The notes under the pieces are model-generated. The model saw only the letters and a program-made list of their open reading frames with translations, was not told the origin of the DNA and did not search any database. A stretch of 34,989 nucleotides of DNA from a virus: positions 1-34,989 of IMG/VR virus record IMGVR_UViG_3300014499_000016. One strand, given 5' to 3'. A program made the position numbers and the translations under genes. Shown one piece after another: positions 2 to 15,895 of this stretch. Positions within the stretch are counted from its first letter, which is position 1. Each line of letters begins with the position of its first letter.

Positions 2-364
2 AAGAAAATGCAACCTCCACCGATTGATCTTTTAGTAAAAAGACTTGCTCAGATTAGCAGAGCAGCGGGAGTGCATATAGTAATTGCTACTCAAAGACCT
101 TCGATTAAGGTAGTAAGCGGGGATATAAAAACTAATTTCGCTGGGCGTATTTGCTTCAAACTCCCATCTATGATGGATTCAAGAGTTATTCTTGATGAAA
201 ATGGAGCAGAGAAGCTCTTAGGCAAGGGAGATTATCTTTATAAAACTTCAACATCTGAGAATGTTAAACGTGCTCATAGTGCTTTTGTGAGTATAAATGA
301 CATTGCGACGATAATCACACAATCTGAGGAACTAAGGAGACAATATGCAAATCAAAGAGAATGA
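2..364 (+). CDS. FtsK/SpoIIIE-type DNA translocase, C-terminal fragment
   Basis: This is the 3' end of an ATP-driven double-stranded DNA pump; the reading frame is open to the left window edge, so the gene is partial. The visible part matches the end of the FtsK RecA-like motor: RLAQISRAAGVHIVIATQRP (the beta strand and ATQRP sensor after Walker B), then IKTNF, DSRVILDENGAEKLLGKGD and a YLYK strand. FtsK motors normally continue into a winged-helix gamma domain that reads chromosome polarity signals. Here the protein stops about 30 residues after the motor, so that domain is missing. The next gene starts inside its last codons (345-364), so the two are translationally coupled. In a phage such a motor could act in DNA movement or segregation; its role is not shown here. 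Confidence 0.88.
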   Translation, partial: KKMQPPPIDLLVKRLAQISRAAGVHIVIATQRPSIKVVSGDIKTNFAGRICFKLPSMMDSRVILDENGAEKLLGKGDYLYKTSTSENVKRAHSAFVSINDIATIITQSEELRRQYANQRE

Positions 365-4345: not shown

Positions 4346-4870
4346 ATGGCTTTTAAAATGGGAATGAGCAAAGAGGATTTGTCGGGACCGCCCCCAGTTC
4401 CTCAGGGTGTTTATGAACTTCAAGTAACTGGATTTCGTCCAAAGATCGCTAAGAGTGGAGAATCCCTTAACTACAATCTGGAAGCTACGATTGTAAATAA
4501 TCCAAAGTTTGAGAATAGGAAAGTGTTTCATCCACTTAATACCTCATTTGCAGTAGCAGTGAGAGATTTTGCTCATGCTTGTGGGATTGATATGGAGAAG
4601 ATTACAGTCCTTACGACAGCAGATACCCCACAGCATGAGGAGTTTGTACTGCCTGGAATTTTTGAGGGTGCAGCAGAGAATCCTGATGATCCTTCTAAGT
4701 GGGGAAAGTATATTGGCCCATTGACGAATAAGATTTTCAAGGCAGAGTTGGCTATTACGGTGTATCAGGGAAAAGAGAAGAATGAAGTTAGAGTCTTCTT
4801 TTGTGCTTATTCAAACTGTGCGGTTGAGTATCCTGATATTAAACATTCTAGCAATTTAATCAAGGGTTAA
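4346..4870 (+). CDS. SSB-like / DUF669-like single-strand DNA-binding protein
   Basis: This is a 174-residue protein with an OB-fold-like pattern of strands: QGVYELQVTGFRPKIAKSG, LNYNLEATIVN, RKVFHPLNT, and IFKAELAITVYQGKEKNEVR. Proteins of this shape next to a Sak4-like ATPase are usually the phage single-stranded DNA-binding partner, sometimes placed in DUF669. It should coat single strands during replication and recombination. It begins one base after the ATPase stop codon and is the last gene before a hairpin terminator, closing this operon. An acidic tail as in E. coli SSB is not present; the end reads NLIKG. Assignment rests on strand pattern and neighbours. Confidence 0.6.
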   Translation: MAFKMGMSKEDLSGPPPVPQGVYELQVTGFRPKIAKSGESLNYNLEATIVNNPKFENRKVFHPLNTSFAVAVRDFAHACGIDMEKITVLTTADTPQHEEFVLPGIFEGAAENPDDPSKWGKYIGPLTNKIFKAELAITVYQGKEKNEVRVFFCAYSNCAVEYPDIKHSSNLIKG

Positions 4871-4957: not shown

Positions 4958-6052
4958 GTGCCATTTATTCATCCGAAAGGTTCGCCAACGTCGCGTATTT
5001 GGGTAGTAGTAGATGCTCCGTTGTCTACTGATATAGCAAAGGGATTTCTCTTCTCAGGTGGTCTTGGTTATGTTTTTGATAAGATGATGATGGATGCTGG
5101 AATTGGGGATTATTATGTAGTCTGCCGGCGACCAAATACAGATGTGCCAGAAGCTTTTCATATCATAGAGAATGAGCTTAATCAGTATAAGCCTCCTTTT
5201 ATAATTGCAATAGGAGCTACTGGCTCTTTCTTTTGTGAAGCTTTAAAACCGAATAATAAGCATAAAAGTTATGTAACTCAGCTTGGGAAGTATGTAGGCT
5301 CGTTACTTAAAGCCTCGTATAAGTCTCTGAACTTCGAGCATTATATAATGCCTATGTATGATGTATCGAAGTTTGTACAAGGTTGGGCAGAGAGAAATAT
5401 TACTACTTATTTTGATATGCAGAAATTAAGAGAAGAGTACACATACTGGAGAATTCATGGAAAACTTCAAGAGTTACCACAGAGAGAACTTTTGTACAAG
5501 GATATGGACTTAGATAATTTACTTTTATTGTTTAGAAGATTTAAACAATCTAAGCTTATCTCTGTTGATATTGAGACTTGTTATCCTAAGGGAGATTCTG
5601 TTTTTAAGCCTCATCCTGGGTATCCAATTACAATAGGTATTGCAGATTCTCCAAGTTTTGGAATTTCTTTTAATCTATTTCGTGAGTCACCTAGAGAAAC
5701 TGTTATTCTTTGGAGAGAGTTAAATGAAGTATTTAGAAGCGTACCCAATCTCGGTCAAAATTATTTTAATTTTGACGCACATTTCCTTAATAGCTTGGGG
5801 TTTGATATTGATTTACGAACTATTCAAGATACTCTTATCAGGCATCATGTCTTGTGGCCTGAGCTTCCTCATAAATTACAGTTTATGACGAGGCAGTATA
5901 CAAGAGAGCCTTATTATAAGGATGAAGGTCATGCTTGGAATTTGAAGAGTATGAATAAGTTAAGAAGGTATAATTGTTTGGATGTTTGTGTCACGTATGA
6001 GATTTATCTTCAGCAAGAGGAAGAATTTAATGAGAGGAAGTATTTGAGATGA
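4958..6052 (+). CDS. DNA polymerase I-type, N-terminal half: UDG-like domain plus 3'-5' exonuclease
   Basis: The 364-residue product is the proofreading half of a family A phage polymerase. Residues about 12-170 resemble the uracil-DNA-glycosylase-like domain found at the front of some phage polymerases (RIWVVVDAP, FIIAIGATGSFF). Residues about 195-355 are a DnaQ/PolA exonuclease: Exo I D204-I-E206 (ISVDIETC), Exo II N268 to D273 (NYFNFD), Exo III Y338 to D342 (YNCLD). The protein ends just after Exo III, and the polymerase domain is encoded separately at 7970-9445. It starts with GTG after AAAAAGGATAATTAA, 23 bases past a terminator hairpin. Its stop overlaps the next ATG (ATGA). The split falls at the domain boundary, so both parts may still assemble. 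Confidence 0.85.
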   Translation: MPFIHPKGSPTSRIWVVVDAPLSTDIAKGFLFSGGLGYVFDKMMMDAGIGDYYVVCRRPNTDVPEAFHIIENELNQYKPPFIIAIGATGSFFCEALKPNNKHKSYVTQLGKYVGSLLKASYKSLNFEHYIMPMYDVSKFVQGWAERNITTYFDMQKLREEYTYWRIHGKLQELPQRELLYKDMDLDNLLLLFRRFKQSKLISVDIETCYPKGDSVFKPHPGYPITIGIADSPSFGISFNLFRESPRETVILWRELNEVFRSVPNLGQNYFNFDAHFLNSLGFDIDLRTIQDTLIRHHVLWPELPHKLQFMTRQYTREPYYKDEGHAWNLKSMNKLRRYNCLDVCVTYEIYLQQEEEFNERKYLR

Positions 6053-6333
6053 GTAAAAGTCAGGAATCAATGAGGCGGGAGTATATAGGAAAGCCTGGAT
6101 GTTCGTATTGCGGTCCTGTGTGCTACGGCGGCGCAGCGCATAACGCGAGAGTAGAAGATAGTACTAAGAAAACCACGCCGGAGCCAGTAGCTCTTACACT
6201 GAGGGAACGGATTGAAAGGCACGTAGCCAATGGGCATGGTTACAGAGATGTGTACCATAATGCCGTTCAAGAAACTACTGCTCGCATTATGAGTGAACTA
6301 GAACTCGCCGCCGAGCGGAAGGAGCAGCCATGA
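6049..6333 (+). CDS. Hypothetical protein at the left edge of the island
   Basis: This is a 94-residue protein with no recognised family. The start ATG overlaps the stop of the exonuclease gene, and its own stop overlaps the next start, both as ATGA. A cysteine cluster (GKPGCSYCGPVC, residues about 15-26) could bind a metal. The second half is helical and charged (LTLRERIERHVANGHGYRD, then MSELELAAERKEQP). The ATG at 6070 is an alternative start without such overlap. The composition becomes GC-rich partway through this gene, so it may straddle the insertion junction. Confidence 0.5.
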   Translation: MSKSQESMRREYIGKPGCSYCGPVCYGGAAHNARVEDSTKKTTPEPVALTLRERIERHVANGHGYRDVYHNAVQETTARIMSELELAAERKEQP

Positions 6334-6650
6334 GTGAGCAAAAGCACATCAACAAATACGAAGCACCGACGCTCTATAACGAAGCAGGCTCTCCACTGAT
6401 TGCAAGTCGCGGCTTCGAGGTAGTCAAGTACGAAGAACACCGCGCAGCCGTCGAGAAGCTAATAGCCGAGAACGACAGAATCTCTCACGCTCTTAGCAAT
6501 GCTGATAATCGTAATAATGAGATGGAGGCGCTGCTGAGGGAAATAATTGTGGATTACGACGAGCGCAATCGTGCGTGGCCAAGTATGCCAGATCGACAGC
6601 ACCGCGTTCGCGTTATAGAAAATGCGCGACAAGCATTGGAGGGGAAATGA
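6330..6650 (+). CDS. Hypothetical coiled-coil phage protein
   Basis: This 106-residue protein has a central heptad-like helix (HRAAVEKLIAENDRISHAL and NNEMEALLREIIVDYDE), the kind of small accessory protein often found in the early regions of temperate phages. No catalytic motif is visible. It is joined by ATGA overlaps to the genes on both sides, and has GGAAGGAGC upstream of its ATG. The function is unknown. Confidence 0.55.
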   Translation: MSEQKHINKYEAPTLYNEAGSPLIASRGFEVVKYEEHRAAVEKLIAENDRISHALSNADNRNNEMEALLREIIVDYDERNRAWPSMPDRQHRVRVIENARQALEGK

Positions 6651-6916
6651 GCGACACGCAAAAACATCCGTTACTGAAGCATCTCGAAGGGCAAGCCTAT
6701 GTGTCCCTACTAAAACACGCTGAGAAATGCGACACAGATATTGACTATGACTGGGATAAGTTATCAAGAGATCGCCGCCATGCTGTAAACGCCGCATTAG
6801 ATTTGAAAGATTGTATTGAGCACATCACTAAACTAGAGGCCGAGAACCTGCAACTGCGCGAGGAGACAACGCGGCGCGTTGCACACGCCCTTTACGCCTT
6901 ACGCCCAGCACGTTGA
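6647..6916 (+). CDS. Hypothetical coiled-coil protein
   Basis: This is an 89-residue product. I chose the ATG at 6647 because it follows GGAGGGGAA and overlaps the preceding stop (ATGA). The first part is polar and helical; residues about 60-85 form a short leucine-zipper-like stretch (HITKLEAENLQLREETTRR). The last residues are encoded by DNA that in another frame matches a tyrosine recombinase. The C-terminus may therefore have been created when the recombinase remnant was joined on. No function is recognised. Confidence 0.5.
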   Translation: MSDTQKHPLLKHLEGQAYVSLLKHAEKCDTDIDYDWDKLSRDRRHAVNAALDLKDCIEHITKLEAENLQLREETTRRVAHALYALRPAR

Positions 6917-7026
6917 ATCGGGCGCTCAAGCGTATCCCTGTGAAGATTGAGCACTTTACGGTTCACGATCTGCGCAGGACAGCGGCCACACCCTGGTTCA
7001 CATCTCGGACAAGCGCGATCCAGTAA
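6898..7026 (+). pseudogene. Tyrosine recombinase (integrase) remnant
   Basis: In frame 1 this stretch reads LTPSTLNRALKR, then KIEHFTVHDLRRTAAT, which is the box II region (His-x-Leu-Arg-Arg-Thr) of tyrosine integrases. The homology stops abruptly after RRTAAT, and a stop codon follows at 7024. The upstream catalytic Arg/Lys part and the C-terminal Tyr are absent, and there is no start codon with a ribosome binding site. It is a truncated gene fragment and marks recombination of the island. The 7027-7102 stretch shows no recognisable coding content. Confidence 0.7.
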
Positions 7027-7102
7027 GGATCGATGCCAAGGCGGCGTTTGGGGCAACAACTTTAGCGGGGATACTGGAGTAGGAATCGGTCAGGAGAATA
7101 GC

Positions 7103-7621
7103 ATGGGTTGCGACATCCACAGTTTCGCAGAAGTACGCCGTGATGGGAAATGGGAGCAGAGCGGAGCGGTATTCCCGCTGGATGAGTTTGGCCAGGGATG
7201 GGAGAAACGAAGTCACACAGAACATCCGTTCGATTGGCGCAGTTACGGCTTGTTTGGGTTTCTCGCCAATGTCCGCAACTACTCCTGCGCTCCCTGCATT
7301 CAGGAACCCACTTACGAACTCCCGTTCGACGTTTCGGATAAAGTGCGAGAGGAGTTTGAAGGTTCAGATTGGCATTCAATCAACGTCCTCACACTCAAGC
7401 AATTGCTCGATTACGATTATGAGCAAACGTTTTGGGACCGTCGAGTTACTAAAGAAGTGCGCCCCGGGTACTTTGATGGGGCGGCATTGGCCGAAGAAGG
7501 TGAAGGAGAGACCAAAAAACTTCGGGACTTTCTTGGACTCGATTTTTTCCGCGATTTGGATGTGCTTAATTCCCTTGGCGATCCAGAAAATGTGCGCATT
7601 ATCTTTGCTTTTGACAATTAA
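7103..7621 (+). CDS. MGCDIH-family conserved hypothetical protein
   Basis: The 172-residue protein starts with MGCDIHSFAEVRRDGKW, a hallmark of a conserved family of hypothetical proteins I recall from phages and bacteria. Other shared features are RSYGLFGFLANVRN, LPFDVSDKVREE and DWHSINVLTLKQLLDYD. The function is unknown; conserved Cys, Asp and His near the N-terminus could bind metal. The start was set at ATG 7103 because CAGGAGA lies just upstream and the family begins here. It is GC-rich like the rest of the island and is free-standing after the integrase scar. Confidence 0.75.
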   Translation: MGCDIHSFAEVRRDGKWEQSGAVFPLDEFGQGWEKRSHTEHPFDWRSYGLFGFLANVRNYSCAPCIQEPTYELPFDVSDKVREEFEGSDWHSINVLTLKQLLDYDYEQTFWDRRVTKEVRPGYFDGAALAEEGEGETKKLRDFLGLDFFRDLDVLNSLGDPENVRIIFAFDN

Positions 7622-7700
7622 CCTCGTAAGGCCAAGAGCACTTGCGCTCCCCAGCCAATATCCGACAACCACAACCACTAACCCACAAAGGACAATCACA

Positions 7701-7778
7701 ATGCCAAGTGAGAACCTGATTACGCCCGACTCCCGCGCCGCAGCAAGCGCGACAGTAACCACAAAGGAGAATAAATAA
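7701..7778 (+). CDS. Possible 25-residue micro-ORF
   Basis: An ATG at 7701 preceded by AAAGGAC opens a 25-codon frame that ends immediately before the ATG of the next gene, with AAAGGAG near its end serving that gene. The peptide is Ala/Thr/Ser-rich (SRAAASATVTTKENK). It may be a leader for coupling, the end of a lost gene, or chance. Weakly supported. Confidence 0.3.
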   Translation: MPSENLITPDSRAAASATVTTKENK

Positions 7779-7967
7779 ATGATCTTATGCCAAGCAATAA
7801 TCTGGCTTACTGATAAATCTAACACTTACTGTATGCGTGAAATGGGACATAAAGGGAAGTGCTCGCCTGAGCCAGATAAGAAACCTACAACTCTTGGAGA
7901 GTTAACTCCAGAACAACAGAAAGAAGTTTTATCTCGTACTCATATTGGCTATGGAACTAAGGGTTAA
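7779..7967 (+). CDS. Small Cys/His protein, zinc-knuckle-like
   Basis: This is a 62-residue protein with C4, C18, H24 and C29 (YCMREMGHKGKCS), a C..C-x5-H-x4-C spacing that could hold one zinc. The rest is polar and ends two bases before the polymerase start. Base usage is AT-rich like the phage backbone, so the island ends just before it. An AAAGGAG site precedes the ATG. It could be an old neighbour of the polymerase. Function unknown. Confidence 0.55.
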   Translation: MILCQAIIWLTDKSNTYCMREMGHKGKCSPEPDKKPTTLGELTPEQQKEVLSRTHIGYGTKG

Positions 7968-7969
7968 GA

Positions 7970-9445
7970 ATGACTAATCGTATATCCTCTTCCTATCTTC
8001 ATCAACTTCAACGTGTCTACTATAATATAGGAGATAGAGGAATTCGTGTTGCTATGCTTCGTGTCGAGGCGAATAAATTAAAGATCAAAACCTTGATAAA
8101 TGAGCAACTTGAAATAGCCTCTAAACAATGGAGTTGCGTAGTCTATGTCGGAGCAGCTAATAAGCCTGCTGATGATAAGACCTCTGTTAATCTAAACTCT
8201 ACGCAAGGTGAGAGAGCACTTCTTTCTAAGCTCAAAGAGCTAGGATATAAGATTCCCTCTATTAATAAGAAAAACACAGATAGAGAGTATGAGTCTAAAT
8301 TCAGTACAGGAGAGCTTGCACTCCAGAAAATGCTTGTTGAAAATCAGTTTAACTATCCCGCAGGTGATCCAGCGATTCGCGCCATTCTTAAAGTTCGGGA
8401 ACTTGGAAAAATTTCCTCTGTATATCTTAATTCCAGACTTCGGTATACAAATAACGAAGCTTTCTTTTTATCTGTATATAACGTCGCAGGAACACTTACA
8501 GGAAGAAGAACATCTCGCAAGCATATCTTTGGATTTGGGAATAATTCTCAGAATTTCCCGCATCACTCTAGTAGTGCTAGATACTTCAGAGAGTGTCTTA
8601 TTCCCAGAGAAGGTAATATCTTCCTAATGTGCGATCAGATGCAAGCTGAAGAGTGGCCTGTATCTGCGCTTTCTTCTAATATGACTGCATTAGAAGAGTT
8701 AAAAACAGGAGTAGATAGACATTCTAAACTTGCTTCTGCTGTATTTTCTGAGTATATCCCAGCTAAGTCCTCTCCTGATTGGGATAAAGCAAAGCATGAG
8801 ATGAAGCGTTATCTGGGAAAAAAGATTAAGCATGCTCGTAATTATGGAATGAAGAAAAAAAGAATGGCTGAATCTCTTGCTCAAGAAGGGTTTGCAGTAT
8901 CGGAGCAGCTGTGTGAGATTTTACTTAATAAAGCCAGAGAAGTTGACCCTACTGTTGACTCTGTTTTTCATGCTTATATTCAAGAGCAGTTAAGTAACTT
9001 TCATATGCTAAAGACTCCATTTGGAATGGAGAGAATGTTCTTAGGAGCGCGTCCTAATGCTGACAATAGTACATTTTTTAACAAGGCATATTCTTATATT
9101 CCCCAATCTGTTGTGGGGTGTAATACTGGTTTTGCTGTTTTTGAGTTGGAAGAGGATTATCCAGAAGAGGAGAGACAAATTGTACAAGAAGGACATGACT
9201 CAATCGTGCAAGATATACGAGCGGAACCGGAGAATATTCTTAGGTATATCGAAAGAACCGTGAAGGCTTTTAACAGAGAGATTGAGTTTCATAATGGGAT
9301 TAGGATTAATATTCCTATTGAATTTGAATTAGGGTTTGACTTTCAGACAACTGTCACACTTGAGTCCTTGACTCTTGAAGGAATAAAAATAGCTCTTGAT
9401 AAATTGAAAGTTGAGAGAGAGAAAATTGGCCAGACAACTTTTTAA
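7970..9445 (+). CDS. DNA polymerase I-type, C-terminal polymerase half
   Basis: The 491 residues hold the family A polymerase domain without an exonuclease. The start (HQLQRVYYNIGDRGIRV) is the usual beginning of the thumb. TGRRTS and NSQNFPH match the TGRxSS..PNxQN region. Motif A is MCDQMQAEEW with catalytic D222, Q and Glu conserved. Motif B is KHARNYGMKKKRM (N291-Y292-G293), with Tyr where many bacterial polymerases have Phe. Motif C is EGHDSIV: D410 is kept but the usual Glu is Ser. It should copy the phage genome with the exonuclease supplied by the product of 4958-6052. The start is ATG 7970, three bases from the preceding stop. It overlaps the next gene by about 20 bases. Confidence 0.87.
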   Translation: MTNRISSSYLHQLQRVYYNIGDRGIRVAMLRVEANKLKIKTLINEQLEIASKQWSCVVYVGAANKPADDKTSVNLNSTQGERALLSKLKELGYKIPSINKKNTDREYESKFSTGELALQKMLVENQFNYPAGDPAIRAILKVRELGKISSVYLNSRLRYTNNEAFFLSVYNVAGTLTGRRTSRKHIFGFGNNSQNFPHHSSSARYFRECLIPREGNIFLMCDQMQAEEWPVSALSSNMTALEELKTGVDRHSKLASAVFSEYIPAKSSPDWDKAKHEMKRYLGKKIKHARNYGMKKKRMAESLAQEGFAVSEQLCEILLNKAREVDPTVDSVFHAYIQEQLSNFHMLKTPFGMERMFLGARPNADNSTFFNKAYSYIPQSVVGCNTGFAVFELEEDYPEEERQIVQEGHDSIVQDIRAEPENILRYIERTVKAFNREIEFHNGIRINIPIEFELGFDFQTTVTLESLTLEGIKIALDKLKVEREKIGQTTF

Positions 9446-10685
9446 ACCGTGGTATGCCTCATTTGTCGAATGTTGTGAACCGCATACCGAAGCTCCGAGA
9501 CAGTATCTACTTTGGAGTGCTATTAGTGTGCTTGCTGGAGTTCTAAAGAATGATGTTTTTCTAAAGCGGGGATTGTACACACTTTATCCTAATCAGTTTA
9601 TTATCTTAACTGGACCGCCTGGAATTGGAAAAGGAACAGCGATTAATTTTGCCTGGAGAATGACAAAGATTACTAATTCAAGATTAGCGAATGTTCTGAC
9701 TGATAGAGCTACTATTCCTGAGCTTCTTAGGCTTATCGCTAAAGGCTGGCCGACGGTGCCTAAGATAATCAATGGTCAAGCTCTTATGGCTACTATGGAG
9801 CATTCTTGTACTATCATAGCCTCTGAGCTTCAGACACTTCTAGCAAGTGGGACTAAGGATACTCTTCAGGTCTTTTGTCAATTATGGGATCAGCAGGAGT
9901 ATGAGAATAGGACAAAAAATCAGGGTACGGATATTATTAGGGATATGTGTGTTAATTTAATAGGAGGGACAGTTCCTGACTATATCAGAGGAATGGAACG
10001 AGATTTAGGGGCTGTTATTGCTGGGGGATATACTGCGAGATGTATTTTTATCCACGCAGATAAGAAGTCTAAGGAGCTTCCAGATGAACCTACGATTGAG
10101 AGTATTCCAAAATCTTTGGAGTTGTATAATAAGTTAAAAAATGATCTTTTATATATCGCAAGTAATGTGAAAGGTGAGTTTAAGATTTCTGAAGAGGCGA
10201 GGCTTATATTCTCTAATTATTACCCCGCAACCTCAGCATTACCTGATGATTCAGATGCTATGCTTAATTTTAAAGAGCGGATTAAGACTCATATTTTTAA
10301 GTTAAGTATGATATTAAGCGCAGCAAGGAAAGATTCACTTATTATAGAAGGTCAGGATATAAGAGATGCGATCTTTCTCATAACCTCCGTTAGACGGCAG
10401 CTTGATAAGGTCTTCCGTGGGATAGGGTCTTCTCAGTTAGCTGAACCTACGGCTAAGGTACAGTCAATTATCGAAAGATATGGGATGTGCACTAAGCTAC
10501 AATTAATTCAATCTACGCATAGGCACTTTGATCCTGCTGTCTTAGACAGAGTGCTTTATGTACTCGAAACAATAGGATTTTTAACAATTCAAAAAAGAGG
10601 CGGTAAGATATACTACGTCCAGATTCCTAAAGGTAATCAAGGAATGGGTCTTGGTTCAGTTTCTAAATCAGTAAATATTCCATAA
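9426..10685 (+). CDS. DUF3987-like phage helicase/primase-type ATPase
   Basis: This is a protein of about 419 residues. The N-terminus (YASFVECCEPHTEAPRQYLLW) and P-loop GPPGIGKGT (residues 63-71 from TTG 9426) match DUF3987-type phage proteins, which often stand in for replicative helicase or primase-helicase. The motor is followed by a helical region, and the C-terminus (about residues 345-405) looks like a winged helix (AKVQSIIERYG, DPAVLDRVLYVLETIGFLT). I prefer TTG 9426, spaced after GAGAGAGAAAA; TTG 9411 is an in-frame alternative giving 424 residues. It overlaps the polymerase gene, consistent with a shared role at the replication fork. Confidence 0.65.
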   Translation: MARQLFKPWYASFVECCEPHTEAPRQYLLWSAISVLAGVLKNDVFLKRGLYTLYPNQFIILTGPPGIGKGTAINFAWRMTKITNSRLANVLTDRATIPELLRLIAKGWPTVPKIINGQALMATMEHSCTIIASELQTLLASGTKDTLQVFCQLWDQQEYENRTKNQGTDIIRDMCVNLIGGTVPDYIRGMERDLGAVIAGGYTARCIFIHADKKSKELPDEPTIESIPKSLELYNKLKNDLLYIASNVKGEFKISEEARLIFSNYYPATSALPDDSDAMLNFKERIKTHIFKLSMILSAARKDSLIIEGQDIRDAIFLITSVRRQLDKVFRGIGSSQLAEPTAKVQSIIERYGMCTKLQLIQSTHRHFDPAVLDRVLYVLETIGFLTIQKRGGKIYYVQIPKGNQGMGLGSVSKSVNIP

Positions 10686-10695
10686 GGAGTTTTAA

Positions 10696-11337
10696 ATGTC
10701 AGAGACAACACAACAAAAAGGTGCGGTAGAGTTAGTCGAGCGTGGTTTTCTAGCTCGTCAAGAAGAAACGCAGAATATCATTGTACGAGATGATGGAACT
10801 AATACGGCTTCTATTCCAGGTTTTCCTTATATCTTCGAGGCTATGGGAGATAAGATTCTCGTGGCCGTGGATGTTTATAAGAGTGGTTATGAATGTAAAG
10901 AATGTAAGGGAACTGGGAAGATTACATCACATTGTGCTTGTGAGGATAGTGGCCGGCCAGGTTATAAGTATGTAGAACCAGCAAATGACGTACAGAAAGA
11001 TATGAAATGTCCTGAGTGTCTTGGAGATTTTATCTCTAAAAGAGTAGATAAAGAGTGCTCTGAATGTAAAGGTAAAGGTGCTCTTATCTGGATTCCAGAT
11101 CAGTCTAAATCCATGCCTACTACAGGTGTGATAGTATCAGTAGGATCAGAGGTAAAGAATCTTAGGTTAAAGAATCATTCTCGTGTACTCTTTGGTGCTT
11201 ATACAGGAGTGATGATTCCAACTAAGGCTCCTGGGGTTGTGTTCAAAGTTCTTCGTGATATTGAAGTTCTTTGTACAATTCAAGGAGGGGAAGACATGGC
11301 GGTATTTGACTTTGTAGTAACAGATAAGGAGCTTTAA
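10696..11337 (+). CDS. GroES-like co-chaperonin with inserted DnaJ-type zinc finger
   Basis: This 213-residue protein has GroES strands at both ends: GDKILVAV (51-58), then TGVIVSVGS (143-151), RVLFGAYTGVMI (163-174) and FKVLRDIEVLCTI (183-195). Between the first strand and the rest is a cysteine-rich block of about 65 residues with four DnaJ-like repeats: C67-C70 (CKECKGTG), HCAC at 79-82, C105-C108 (CPECLGD), and C121-C124 (CSECKGKG). The block ends where GroES has its mobile loop; ALIWIPDQ (129-136) would be the GroEL-binding hydrophobic segment. An N-terminal extension of 45 residues precedes the fold. It could cap host GroEL with altered client handling during capsid or tail folding. AAGGAG precedes the ATG. 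Confidence 0.8.
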   Translation: MSETTQQKGAVELVERGFLARQEETQNIIVRDDGTNTASIPGFPYIFEAMGDKILVAVDVYKSGYECKECKGTGKITSHCACEDSGRPGYKYVEPANDVQKDMKCPECLGDFISKRVDKECSECKGKGALIWIPDQSKSMPTTGVIVSVGSEVKNLRLKNHSRVLFGAYTGVMIPTKAPGVVFKVLRDIEVLCTIQGGEDMAVFDFVVTDKEL

Positions 11338-14508: not shown

Positions 14509-14585
14509 TAGAACTCCTCTATTCCTAAATCTTCACAGATACAATCCCAGATATGTTGATAGAAGTTATGCCCCATTAATTTCAT
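14508..14585 (-). CDS. 25-residue micro-ORF between ATP-grasp and fibre genes
   Basis: The minus strand reads a 25-codon frame (MKLMGHNFYQ, then HIWDCICEDLGIEEF). Its ATG overlaps the TAA of the ATP-grasp gene, and its TAA overlaps the ATG of fibre gene B, both as TAATG. The peptide is acidic at the C-terminus and has two Cys. It may be a real microprotein or a ribosome-coupling device. Both overlaps and the GAGGAG near its end support translation. Confidence 0.45.
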   Translation of the reverse strand: MKLMGHNFYQHIWDCICEDLGIEEF

Positions 14586-15895
14586 TATCGTAACCATCCC
14601 CAGTCTCGAATTTGTTCATATCTCCTTGTCGTGCTCTTCTCTATATCAGTTCTATACTGACAGTTTGGAATATTAATCTTCTCCATTTTTCCTTTTATAA
14701 TACCAAAAGCTCCCTCTATAGAATTCGATGCGCTTAATACAGCTCCGATATAGCCAAAATTACCACTTGTCTCTAGTTTCCCTTTTACAACCATAGCGTC
14801 ATAAAGATATATCTCCATAAGCTCTGCTAAGTCTTTCGGATCAATTCCTTCAATCGGAACTCCCTTAGCCTTCGGGACTCTAATCTCTGTGGGGTACGGA
14901 GGAATAGATAAAGTAACAGCAGCACCAAAAGAACCGCCGCCCCATTTAATAGTAGGATTTTTTCCGCTGGAAATATCAAAGAGCATATCACCAAAACCAT
15001 CACCATACATCGTAGCAATGGTCGGATCAGAGACGTAGCCGAAACGTGGTGTCCATTCAAGACCATAGAAGGTATCCTCTGTTACAATTGAATTTAGATC
15101 AATTATTCCTCGGTAACGCATTTGCCGAAGGATAGGTTCGACTTTCGCTAAACCTTCTTTATAAATCTTCATCTCTTCGTTCATGGCAAAAACAAGATTT
15201 CCTGAGCATCCTGTATTTGGACCTTTGTTATCATTCATAAACTTCTTCTCTTCAAGAGTCCCTGTCTGGAGGAAGAATTGAGTTCCATTGAAATAAGCAG
15301 CAACTCCTATTTCCTCCCCTGTTACGAATTCTTGAAGGATAAAAGGATTATTCTTCGATCTTTTCCATAGGTCGTCGATGAATTCGATTAAATCTTCAGC
15401 ACTCTTAGCTACATAGGTAAGAGATTTATCATCTGATCCTCCACTACCTTCGTAGGGTTTATATACATAACGCTTGCCTGTTTTTTTAATAAACGCTTTT
15501 CCTTCTGAAGCAGTCTCAAAACGCTCAAAAGGAGGGACATTTATCCCTGCCTCTTTCATGGTATTAAGACCAAATTCTCTATCATCCTCAAGCATGTGTT
15601 CTATATAACCATCACCGAAGGTTGGAACTCCTTCTAGACGACAAGCCTCAGCTTGTTTTTGTGTGCCGGTAAGATCAAAAAGGCTAAGATCATATCCTTT
15701 ATAAGATGGAAAGCCATAACCTAGAAGATGCCGGCGCTGATCTACATGATGAACCTTAGGCTCAGGAATCAAGCCACGTAGCACATCTTCATATTCCGGT
15801 TTAGATAAGAAATAATCCACCTTATGCCCTTCAGCTATTAAACGAAGGACAAACCAAGCACCCATTCCAGAATATGAAGACATTGCTATTTTCAT
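14585..15895 (-). CDS. PurD-like ATP-grasp ligase
   Basis: The 436 residues show an N-terminal Rossmann-type pre-ATP-grasp domain (about 1-105), then an ATP-grasp fold: YVYKPYEGSGG (143-153, nucleotide-binding Lys146 and glycine loop), ILQEFVTGEE (186-195), NKGPNTG (223-229, as in PurD DxGPNTGG) and GLEWTPRFG (278-286, metal-binding Glu). The family relative is GAR synthetase, which joins glycine to phosphoribosylamine, but the second metal-site Asn of PurD is Thr here and the substrate may differ. The gene sits in the late structural operon next to fibres, not with purine genes. It may modify a small molecule or protein. It follows a TAAAATG coupling with the small gene at 15897. Confidence 0.75.
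   Translation of the reverse strand: MKIAMSSYSGMGAWFVLRLIAEGHKVDYFLSKPEYEDVLRGLIPEPKVHHVDQRRHLLGYGFPSYKGYDLSLFDLTGTQKQAEACRLEGVPTFGDGYIEHMLEDDREFGLNTMKEAGINVPPFERFETASEGKAFIKKTGKRYVYKPYEGSGGSDDKSLTYVAKSAEDLIEFIDDLWKRSKNNPFILQEFVTGEEIGVAAYFNGTQFFLQTGTLEEKKFMNDNKGPNTGCSGNLVFAMNEEMKIYKEGLAKVEPILRQMRYRGIIDLNSIVTEDTFYGLEWTPRFGYVSDPTIATMYGDGFGDMLFDISSGKNPTIKWGGGSFGAAVTLSIPPYPTEIRVPKAKGVPIEGIDPKDLAELMEIYLYDAMVVKGKLETSGNFGYIGAVLSASNSIEGAFGIIKGKMEKINIPNCQYRTDIEKSTTRRYEQIRDWGWLR

Follow-up and report, generated by a model that had tools for sequence, protein, structure and literature searches.

The window analysed here is the entire IMG/VR virus record IMGVR_UViG_3300014499_000016 (34,989 bp), in which a family A DNA polymerase with an exonuclease part is encoded by two separate genes, A and B; all genes and residues of this locus described below lie on the + strand. 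Gene A (4958..6052) begins with a GTG codon and encodes a protein of 364 amino acids (aa), in which a predicted uracil-DNA glycosylase (UDG)-like fold at residues 1-165 is followed by a DEDDy 3'-5' exonuclease domain at residues 176-364 (5483..6049). Gene B (7970..9445) begins with ATG and encodes the thumb, palm and fingers of a family A DNA polymerase in 491 aa. Along the 1445 positions of phrog_17, A matches 480-831 and B matches 841-1237, i.e. consecutive parts of a single protein family. The two genes are separated by a gap (6053..7969) whose exact length, 1917 bp, agrees with the 1.9 kb given in the initial annotation of this DNA.

Both genes retain the residues expected of their respective activities. 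Gene A carries the DEDDy pattern of PolA exonucleases (DxE, N(x)nD, YxxxD), and the residues concerned are invariant across 37 sequences: D204/E206 of Exo I (5567-5575), N268 (5759) and D273 (5774) of Exo II, and Y338 (5969) and D342 (5981) of Exo III. Gene B matches PF00476 (E 2e-19) as well as phrog_17, and has the motif A Asp, O-helix Lys/Tyr and motif C Asp of family A polymerases: D222 of motif A (8633), K284 (8819) and Y292 (8843) of the O-helix, and H409/D410 of motif C (9194-9199) are invariant in 34 sequences, and a further residue, R179, is encoded at 8504. In motif C, B has HDS in place of HDE, a variant shared with several other phages of the family. The initial annotation had divided the protein at the exonuclease/polymerase boundary and judged neither half to be damaged; the division stands as it was placed, with Exo I-III all in A and the thumb, motif A, O-helix and motif C in B, and both halves are intact open reading frames (ORFs) with invariant catalytic residues.

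Structural models locate the cut more closely. In the AlphaFold2 model of A (predicted local distance difference test (pLDDT) score 86), the exonuclease domain matches residues 328-523 of the solved Klenow structure 1kfs with a Z-score of 15.3, and the model of B (pLDDT 85) matches the Klenow polymerase domain, residues 520-928, with a Z-score of 29.4. On these models, the cut between A and B therefore falls at Klenow residue ~520-523, in the linker at the exonuclease/polymerase domain boundary. The N-terminal domain of A (residues 1-165) is modelled as a family 4 UDG fold, matching the family 4 enzyme 1ui1 with a Z-score of 16.6 over 149 residues. The earlier statement that the first gene keeps a UDG-like domain thus holds for the fold but not for the chemistry, as the UDG catalytic residues are missing. 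In the clade to which the window belongs, the GEAPG motif is lost and the His position of the HP[SA] motif is mostly G, A, E or D, and the window's domain contains only two cysteines, against the four iron-sulphur cysteines of family 4. Because HP[SA], GEAPG and the iron-sulphur cysteines are gone, glycosylase activity has probably been lost and the domain is, by sequence, a pseudo-UDG; its role may be to bind DNA or to provide a docking site.

The split is not peculiar to the window. Three scans of IMG/VR yielded 41 distinct viral loci encoding both halves, the window included, with 35-64% identity to the window in A and 43-59% in B. These come from uncultivated phages. In 41 of 41 loci there are two genes divided at the same cut point, and in 41/41 A and B remain together and in one order. 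The length of the gap varies widely, from -4 bp (an ATGA overlap) through 109, 143-163 and 301-1626 bp to the 1917 bp of the window, the longest of the 41. With 40 other loci showing the same split, an assembly error, which the initial annotation had named as a possible source of the arrangement, is excluded, and chance is a very poor explanation. A scan of cellular genomes for prophage relatives gave none. The gene immediately upstream of A (4346..4870), with a weak match to single-stranded DNA-binding proteins, is kept across the clade, and the gene downstream of B (9411..10685) encodes a DUF3987/DNA primase-like protein that adjoins the polymerase in one-gene relatives too.

PolA is a single chain in cellular organisms and most phages. 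The initial annotation had suggested a comparison with relatives keeping one gene, and such relatives exist. In vir526, Microcystis phage Mel-JY34 and Desulfofustis phage LS06, one gene encodes the UDG-like, exonuclease and polymerase domains in the same order and is followed by the same DUF3987/primase gene. A maximum-likelihood tree was built from the 37 usable loci of the 41 together with one-gene phages; the 37 split loci form a single clade with support 100/100, separate from the one-gene phages. It is likely that one gene is the ancestral state and that the cut arose in an ancestor of the clade. As all 41 loci are split at the same point, the split is old and predates the G+C-rich block, described below, that lies in the window's gap; the one-gene relatives are more distant phages.

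Both halves are under strong purifying selection: the median pairwise ratio of non-synonymous to synonymous substitution rates (dN/dS) is 0.069 for A and 0.074 for B. A Shine-Dalgarno-like sequence precedes B in 27 of the 41 loci, against a background of 20%. It is very likely, as initially proposed, that both halves are made, given their own starts, the ribosome-binding sites (B usually has its own) and the purifying selection. A pseudogene reading was rejected in view of the invariant catalytic residues and low dN/dS in both genes.

The gap of the window is largely filled by a block of higher G+C content (about 48-56% at 6050-7780, compared with about 33-42% in the flanking genes). This block (6050-7778) contains four small ORFs and a possible integrase shred. 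The first ORF (6049..6333, 94 aa), where the block starts, overlaps the stop codon of A by ATGA; it is followed by ORFs of 106 aa (6330..6650) and 89 aa (6648..6916), the latter coiled-coil-like. None of these three has a significant family match. A possible tyrosine integrase fragment of 37 aa (6913..7026) is suggested by a FTVHDLRRTAAT box read from the sequence, the Phage_integrase match reaching an E-value of only 0.17. The fourth ORF (7103..7621, 172 aa) belongs to phrog_10141, a widespread phage family of unknown function; its product starts MGCDIH, and the family occurs in very different phages (Enterobacter EcP1, Paenibacillus, Brevundimonas). A nucleotide search in phages for the source of the block gave no match, and no HNH gene was found in the window's gap. 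Immediately before B lies a 62-aa gene (7779..7967) of a family with the motif TYCMRxxGHKGKC, relatives of which occupy the same gap in four other loci (L015, L020, L021 and L022). The ~1.7-kb G+C-rich block is therefore a later addition beside an older gap gene.

Elsewhere in the clade, a 50-aa gene is present in the gap of 14 loci, and the gap holds other small genes as well. HNH endonuclease genes lie in the gap of five loci (L004, L012, L039, L069 and L091), with a remnant in L090, and the carriers sit at several separate places on the tree. Of 13 HNH genes, 5 lie in the gap, which makes up 5.5% of bases (binomial p 0.0004 by length alone, a crude null). HNH genes are also found between the single-stranded DNA-binding protein-like gene and A in L031, L032 and L002, and in L031 and L032 they end right at the start of A.

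Three related loci appear to record the arrival of such a gene. In L053, A and B overlap by ATGA with nothing between them. In L069, a 146-aa HNH gene follows directly after A and overlaps B by ATGA, and L090 carries an HNH gene of the L069 type with an internal deletion. L069 and L090 are identical from codon ~226 of A through its end (~450 bp) and into the start of the HNH gene, a stretch over which they are 53-78% identical to L053; upstream of codon ~226, the A genes of the three share identities that are mostly at least 0.9, and the beginnings of their B genes agree at 95-99%. In addition, the HNH gene ends in a 32-bp stretch that shares 90.6% identity with the final 32 bp of A in L053. 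On the simplest reading of these sequences, the HNH gene, accompanied by a foreign 3' end of A of ~450 bp, would have replaced the resident A end by break repair, leaving over 32 bp of the old A end that now encode the HNH tail. The pattern is the co-conversion signature of a homing endonuclease, with cleavage by the endonuclease itself being inferred. Since the L053 site is split and empty, the HNH gene of L069 would have entered an already split site, the possibility raised in a review for the endonuclease associated with gp43 of Aeromonas phage 25 (PMC2988022). A second tract of this kind was sought in L012/L013 and in L039/L032/L026/L033, where the last ~40 codons of A vary by groups, and no clean tract was found. 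The otherwise almost identical L036 and L037 differ sharply (identity 0.73-0.87), mainly at A codons ~281-340 and also at B codons 121-140, which marks one more small exchange close to the gap.

We propose, at a probability of roughly 0.74, that a single proofreading family A polymerase is formed from A and B as its two subunits, which an old, clade-wide split has divided and which rejoin non-covalently, with the gap as a tolerated slot. An ancestral UDG-like/exonuclease/polymerase protein would have been cut in an ancestor of the clade, in the linker at Klenow ~520-523. Thereafter A and B would be translated separately, B from its own start and sometimes coupled through ATGA; each would fold as complete domains, and the two would most likely rejoin without a covalent link to give a Klenow-like enzyme. 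The formation of this complex and its activity are inferred. The cut would have been harmless and the gap would so have become a tolerated slot. HNH homing endonucleases would move into it through the repair of double-strand breaks, with co-conversion of the neighbouring end of A, and would later decay or be lost; small phage genes would also collect there. In the phage of the window, a ~1.7-kb G+C-rich block of genes from other phages would thus have come to lie between A and the older gap gene. Once made, the two-gene state may be neutral; alternatively, the slot's tolerance of selfish genes may be what maintains it.

Several observations weigh against this proposal. The distance correlation between A and B is 0.933, no higher than that with neighbouring genes (0.88-0.95), and mirror-tree correlation was dropped as a sign of A-B interaction since all neighbouring genes correlate at 0.83-0.95. 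Variability in the slot before A is similar to that in the A/B gap, and only 5 of 41 gaps hold HNH genes. The HNH gene of L069 is a late invader, not a proven maker of the cut, and no more than a single contig shows the L053 junction.

The initial annotation had taken the 1.9-kb segment to be an insertion that split the polymerase gene. In favour of an insertion splitting a gene still intact in close relatives, the block is richer in G+C than its surroundings and ORF 7103-7621 comes from a family of other phages. However, every close relative is split too, the other 40 loci being cut at the same point with gaps down to -4 and 109-163 bp, and the gap gene at 7779-7967 is related to genes in four other gaps; the insertion is accordingly rejected as the cause of the split, for which it is a practically untenable explanation, and the block remains a later insertion into the gap. 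It is also conceivable, if unlikely, that the halves no longer cooperate, with A acting alone as an exonuclease or DNA-binding protein and B as a polymerase that lacks an exonuclease. The polymerase and exonuclease centres of Klenow are separable, A and B are each predicted to fold as complete domains, and families of stand-alone exonuclease subunits exist in PHROGs (phrog_403, phrog_192). Yet A and B occur together and in the same order in all 41 loci even though the gap is a recombination spot, they are equally constrained, and the cut falls within the linker, which favours reassembly. There is also a precedent for reassembly: in the Aeromonas T4-like phages 25 and 44RR the gp43 polymerase is split as 43A/43B, and gp43A and gp43B of phage 25 co-purify and are active (PMC2988022).

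In favour of a group I intron interrupting the polymerase gene at the gap, such introns with HNH genes are common in the phrog_17 polymerase genes of Bacillus phages (PMC11878797), and some gaps of the clade hold HNH genes. Nevertheless, we regard an intron as highly improbable. None would fit into gaps of -4, 109 and 143-163 bp, which excludes an intron in those relatives though not, formally, in the 1.9-kb gap of the window; further, the stop codon of A comes just after its conserved C-terminus, and B is equipped with a start and a ribosome-binding site of its own. An Rfam search of the window's gap for a group I intron gave no match even at E 10, although the likely intron of Bacillus phage Goe26, used as a control, was itself matched weakly (16.6 bits, E 0.19) and below the gathering score. 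What made the original cut is a separate matter. That an HNH homing endonuclease did so, and has since disappeared or been replaced in most lineages, is compatible with the non-covalent two-subunit polymerase and is a real possibility, if short of an even chance. HNH genes occupy the gap at several separate positions on the tree, a homing-like event is recorded in L053/L069/L090, and there is a precedent in phage Aeh1, where mobE split nrdA (PMC2988022). On the other hand, the L053-type site was already split before HNH entry, most gaps hold no HNH gene, and a frameshift or stop in the linker, followed by re-start (ATGA), would yield the same state. Rather more doubtful is a further elaboration in which the A/B gap is a true homing site: the HNH gene would travel with a diverged 3' half of A that shields the carrier's own gene while the A genes of competitors are cut, the polymerase halves would be exchanged as modules with each new A fitting the resident B, and the two-gene state would be kept because this exchange is possible.

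Split phage polymerases are already known; what is new here is a clade-wide variant cut between exonuclease and polymerase. Like the present system, gp43 is a replicative phage polymerase divided over two genes, which are separated by either an endonuclease gene (seg43) or non-coding sequence, but it belongs to family B rather than A, it is named from two phages, and its activity has been shown, where that of A and B is predicted. Most members of the MEP401-type group of marine OM43 phages likewise encode PolA by two ORFs that flank a small, unknown one, for which the authors suspect an intron (PMC10580990); there, the cut lies inside the polymerase domain and divides PF00476, unlike the cut exactly between exonuclease and thumb seen here. 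The nrdA gene of phage Aeh1, a gene in pieces, resembles the present case as an essential phage enzyme encoded by two ORFs around a homing endonuclease, and single-gene homologues with the same domain order, as found for genes in pieces, exist for A and B in vir526, Mel-JY34 and the Desulfofustis phage. Aeh1 nrdA encodes a ribonucleotide reductase, however, and owes its split to the insertion of the endonuclease, while here an endonuclease is documented just as a later invader.

Other cuts are known within the same polymerase family. The intron-interrupted phrog_17 genes of SPO1 and Bastille also have HNH genes inside (PMC11878797), though a spliced intron restores one chain in those phages; Goe26 resembles the SPO1-type intron position, with an HNH/NUMOD4 gene, and is cut before motif A and near it (profile position 535/541 of 799). 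Caulobacter phage Kuura and Vibrio phage VS-ABTNL-3 have two genes with small genes between them, but the cut in Kuura separates Exo II from Exo III (341/355) and that in VS-ABTNL-3 precedes motif A (549/554). A cut at the same site is seen in Podoviridae sp. ctLwi270 (MW202554) and in the IMG/VR locus L127, in which UDG-exonuclease and polymerase genes are separated in the same linker, with a small ORF between; by profile position the cut is at 382/387 in ctLwi270 and 381/392 here. L128 has the same separate B gene as this group. Unlike the window clade, ctLwi270 and L127 represent a distant lineage with a well conserved UDG domain, which gives a far better UDG family match (E 1e-30). Grouping them with the window clade was marginally rejected by the approximately unbiased test (p-AU 0.031, with long branches in play), so their cut is probably a second, independent event, likely but not certain. 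In L105, an ORF for an NrdR-type zinc ribbon (2391-2651, E 2e-14) lies between the two genes of the second polymerase split at this site.

Three other genes of the window were noted. The gene at 14585-15895 (-) appears to be an auxiliary metabolic gene of purine synthesis, its product having the ATP-grasp domain and the C domain of phosphoribosylglycinamide synthetase (GARS_A, E 3e-11). The gene at 10696-11337 (+) encodes a GroES/Cpn10-like protein (E 4e-7 on residues 123-194) with a DnaJ-like zinc-finger stretch of repeated CxxCxGxG-type motifs inserted or fused. At 8-364 (+), truncated by the start of the record, is the C-terminal part of an FtsK/SpoIIIE-like translocase (phrog_1358, E 8e-32).

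Proofreading on a separate polypeptide, kept over a diverse clade, is a natural test of whether the exonuclease and polymerase of family A enzymes must be covalently joined. L053, L069 and L090 form a series of before, after and decay, by which the question of whether an endonuclease split the gene or invaded a split one becomes directly testable. Cuts in this polymerase family fall between Exo II and Exo III, before motif A and, at least once but probably twice, between exonuclease and thumb, which makes the family a good system in which to study genes in pieces.

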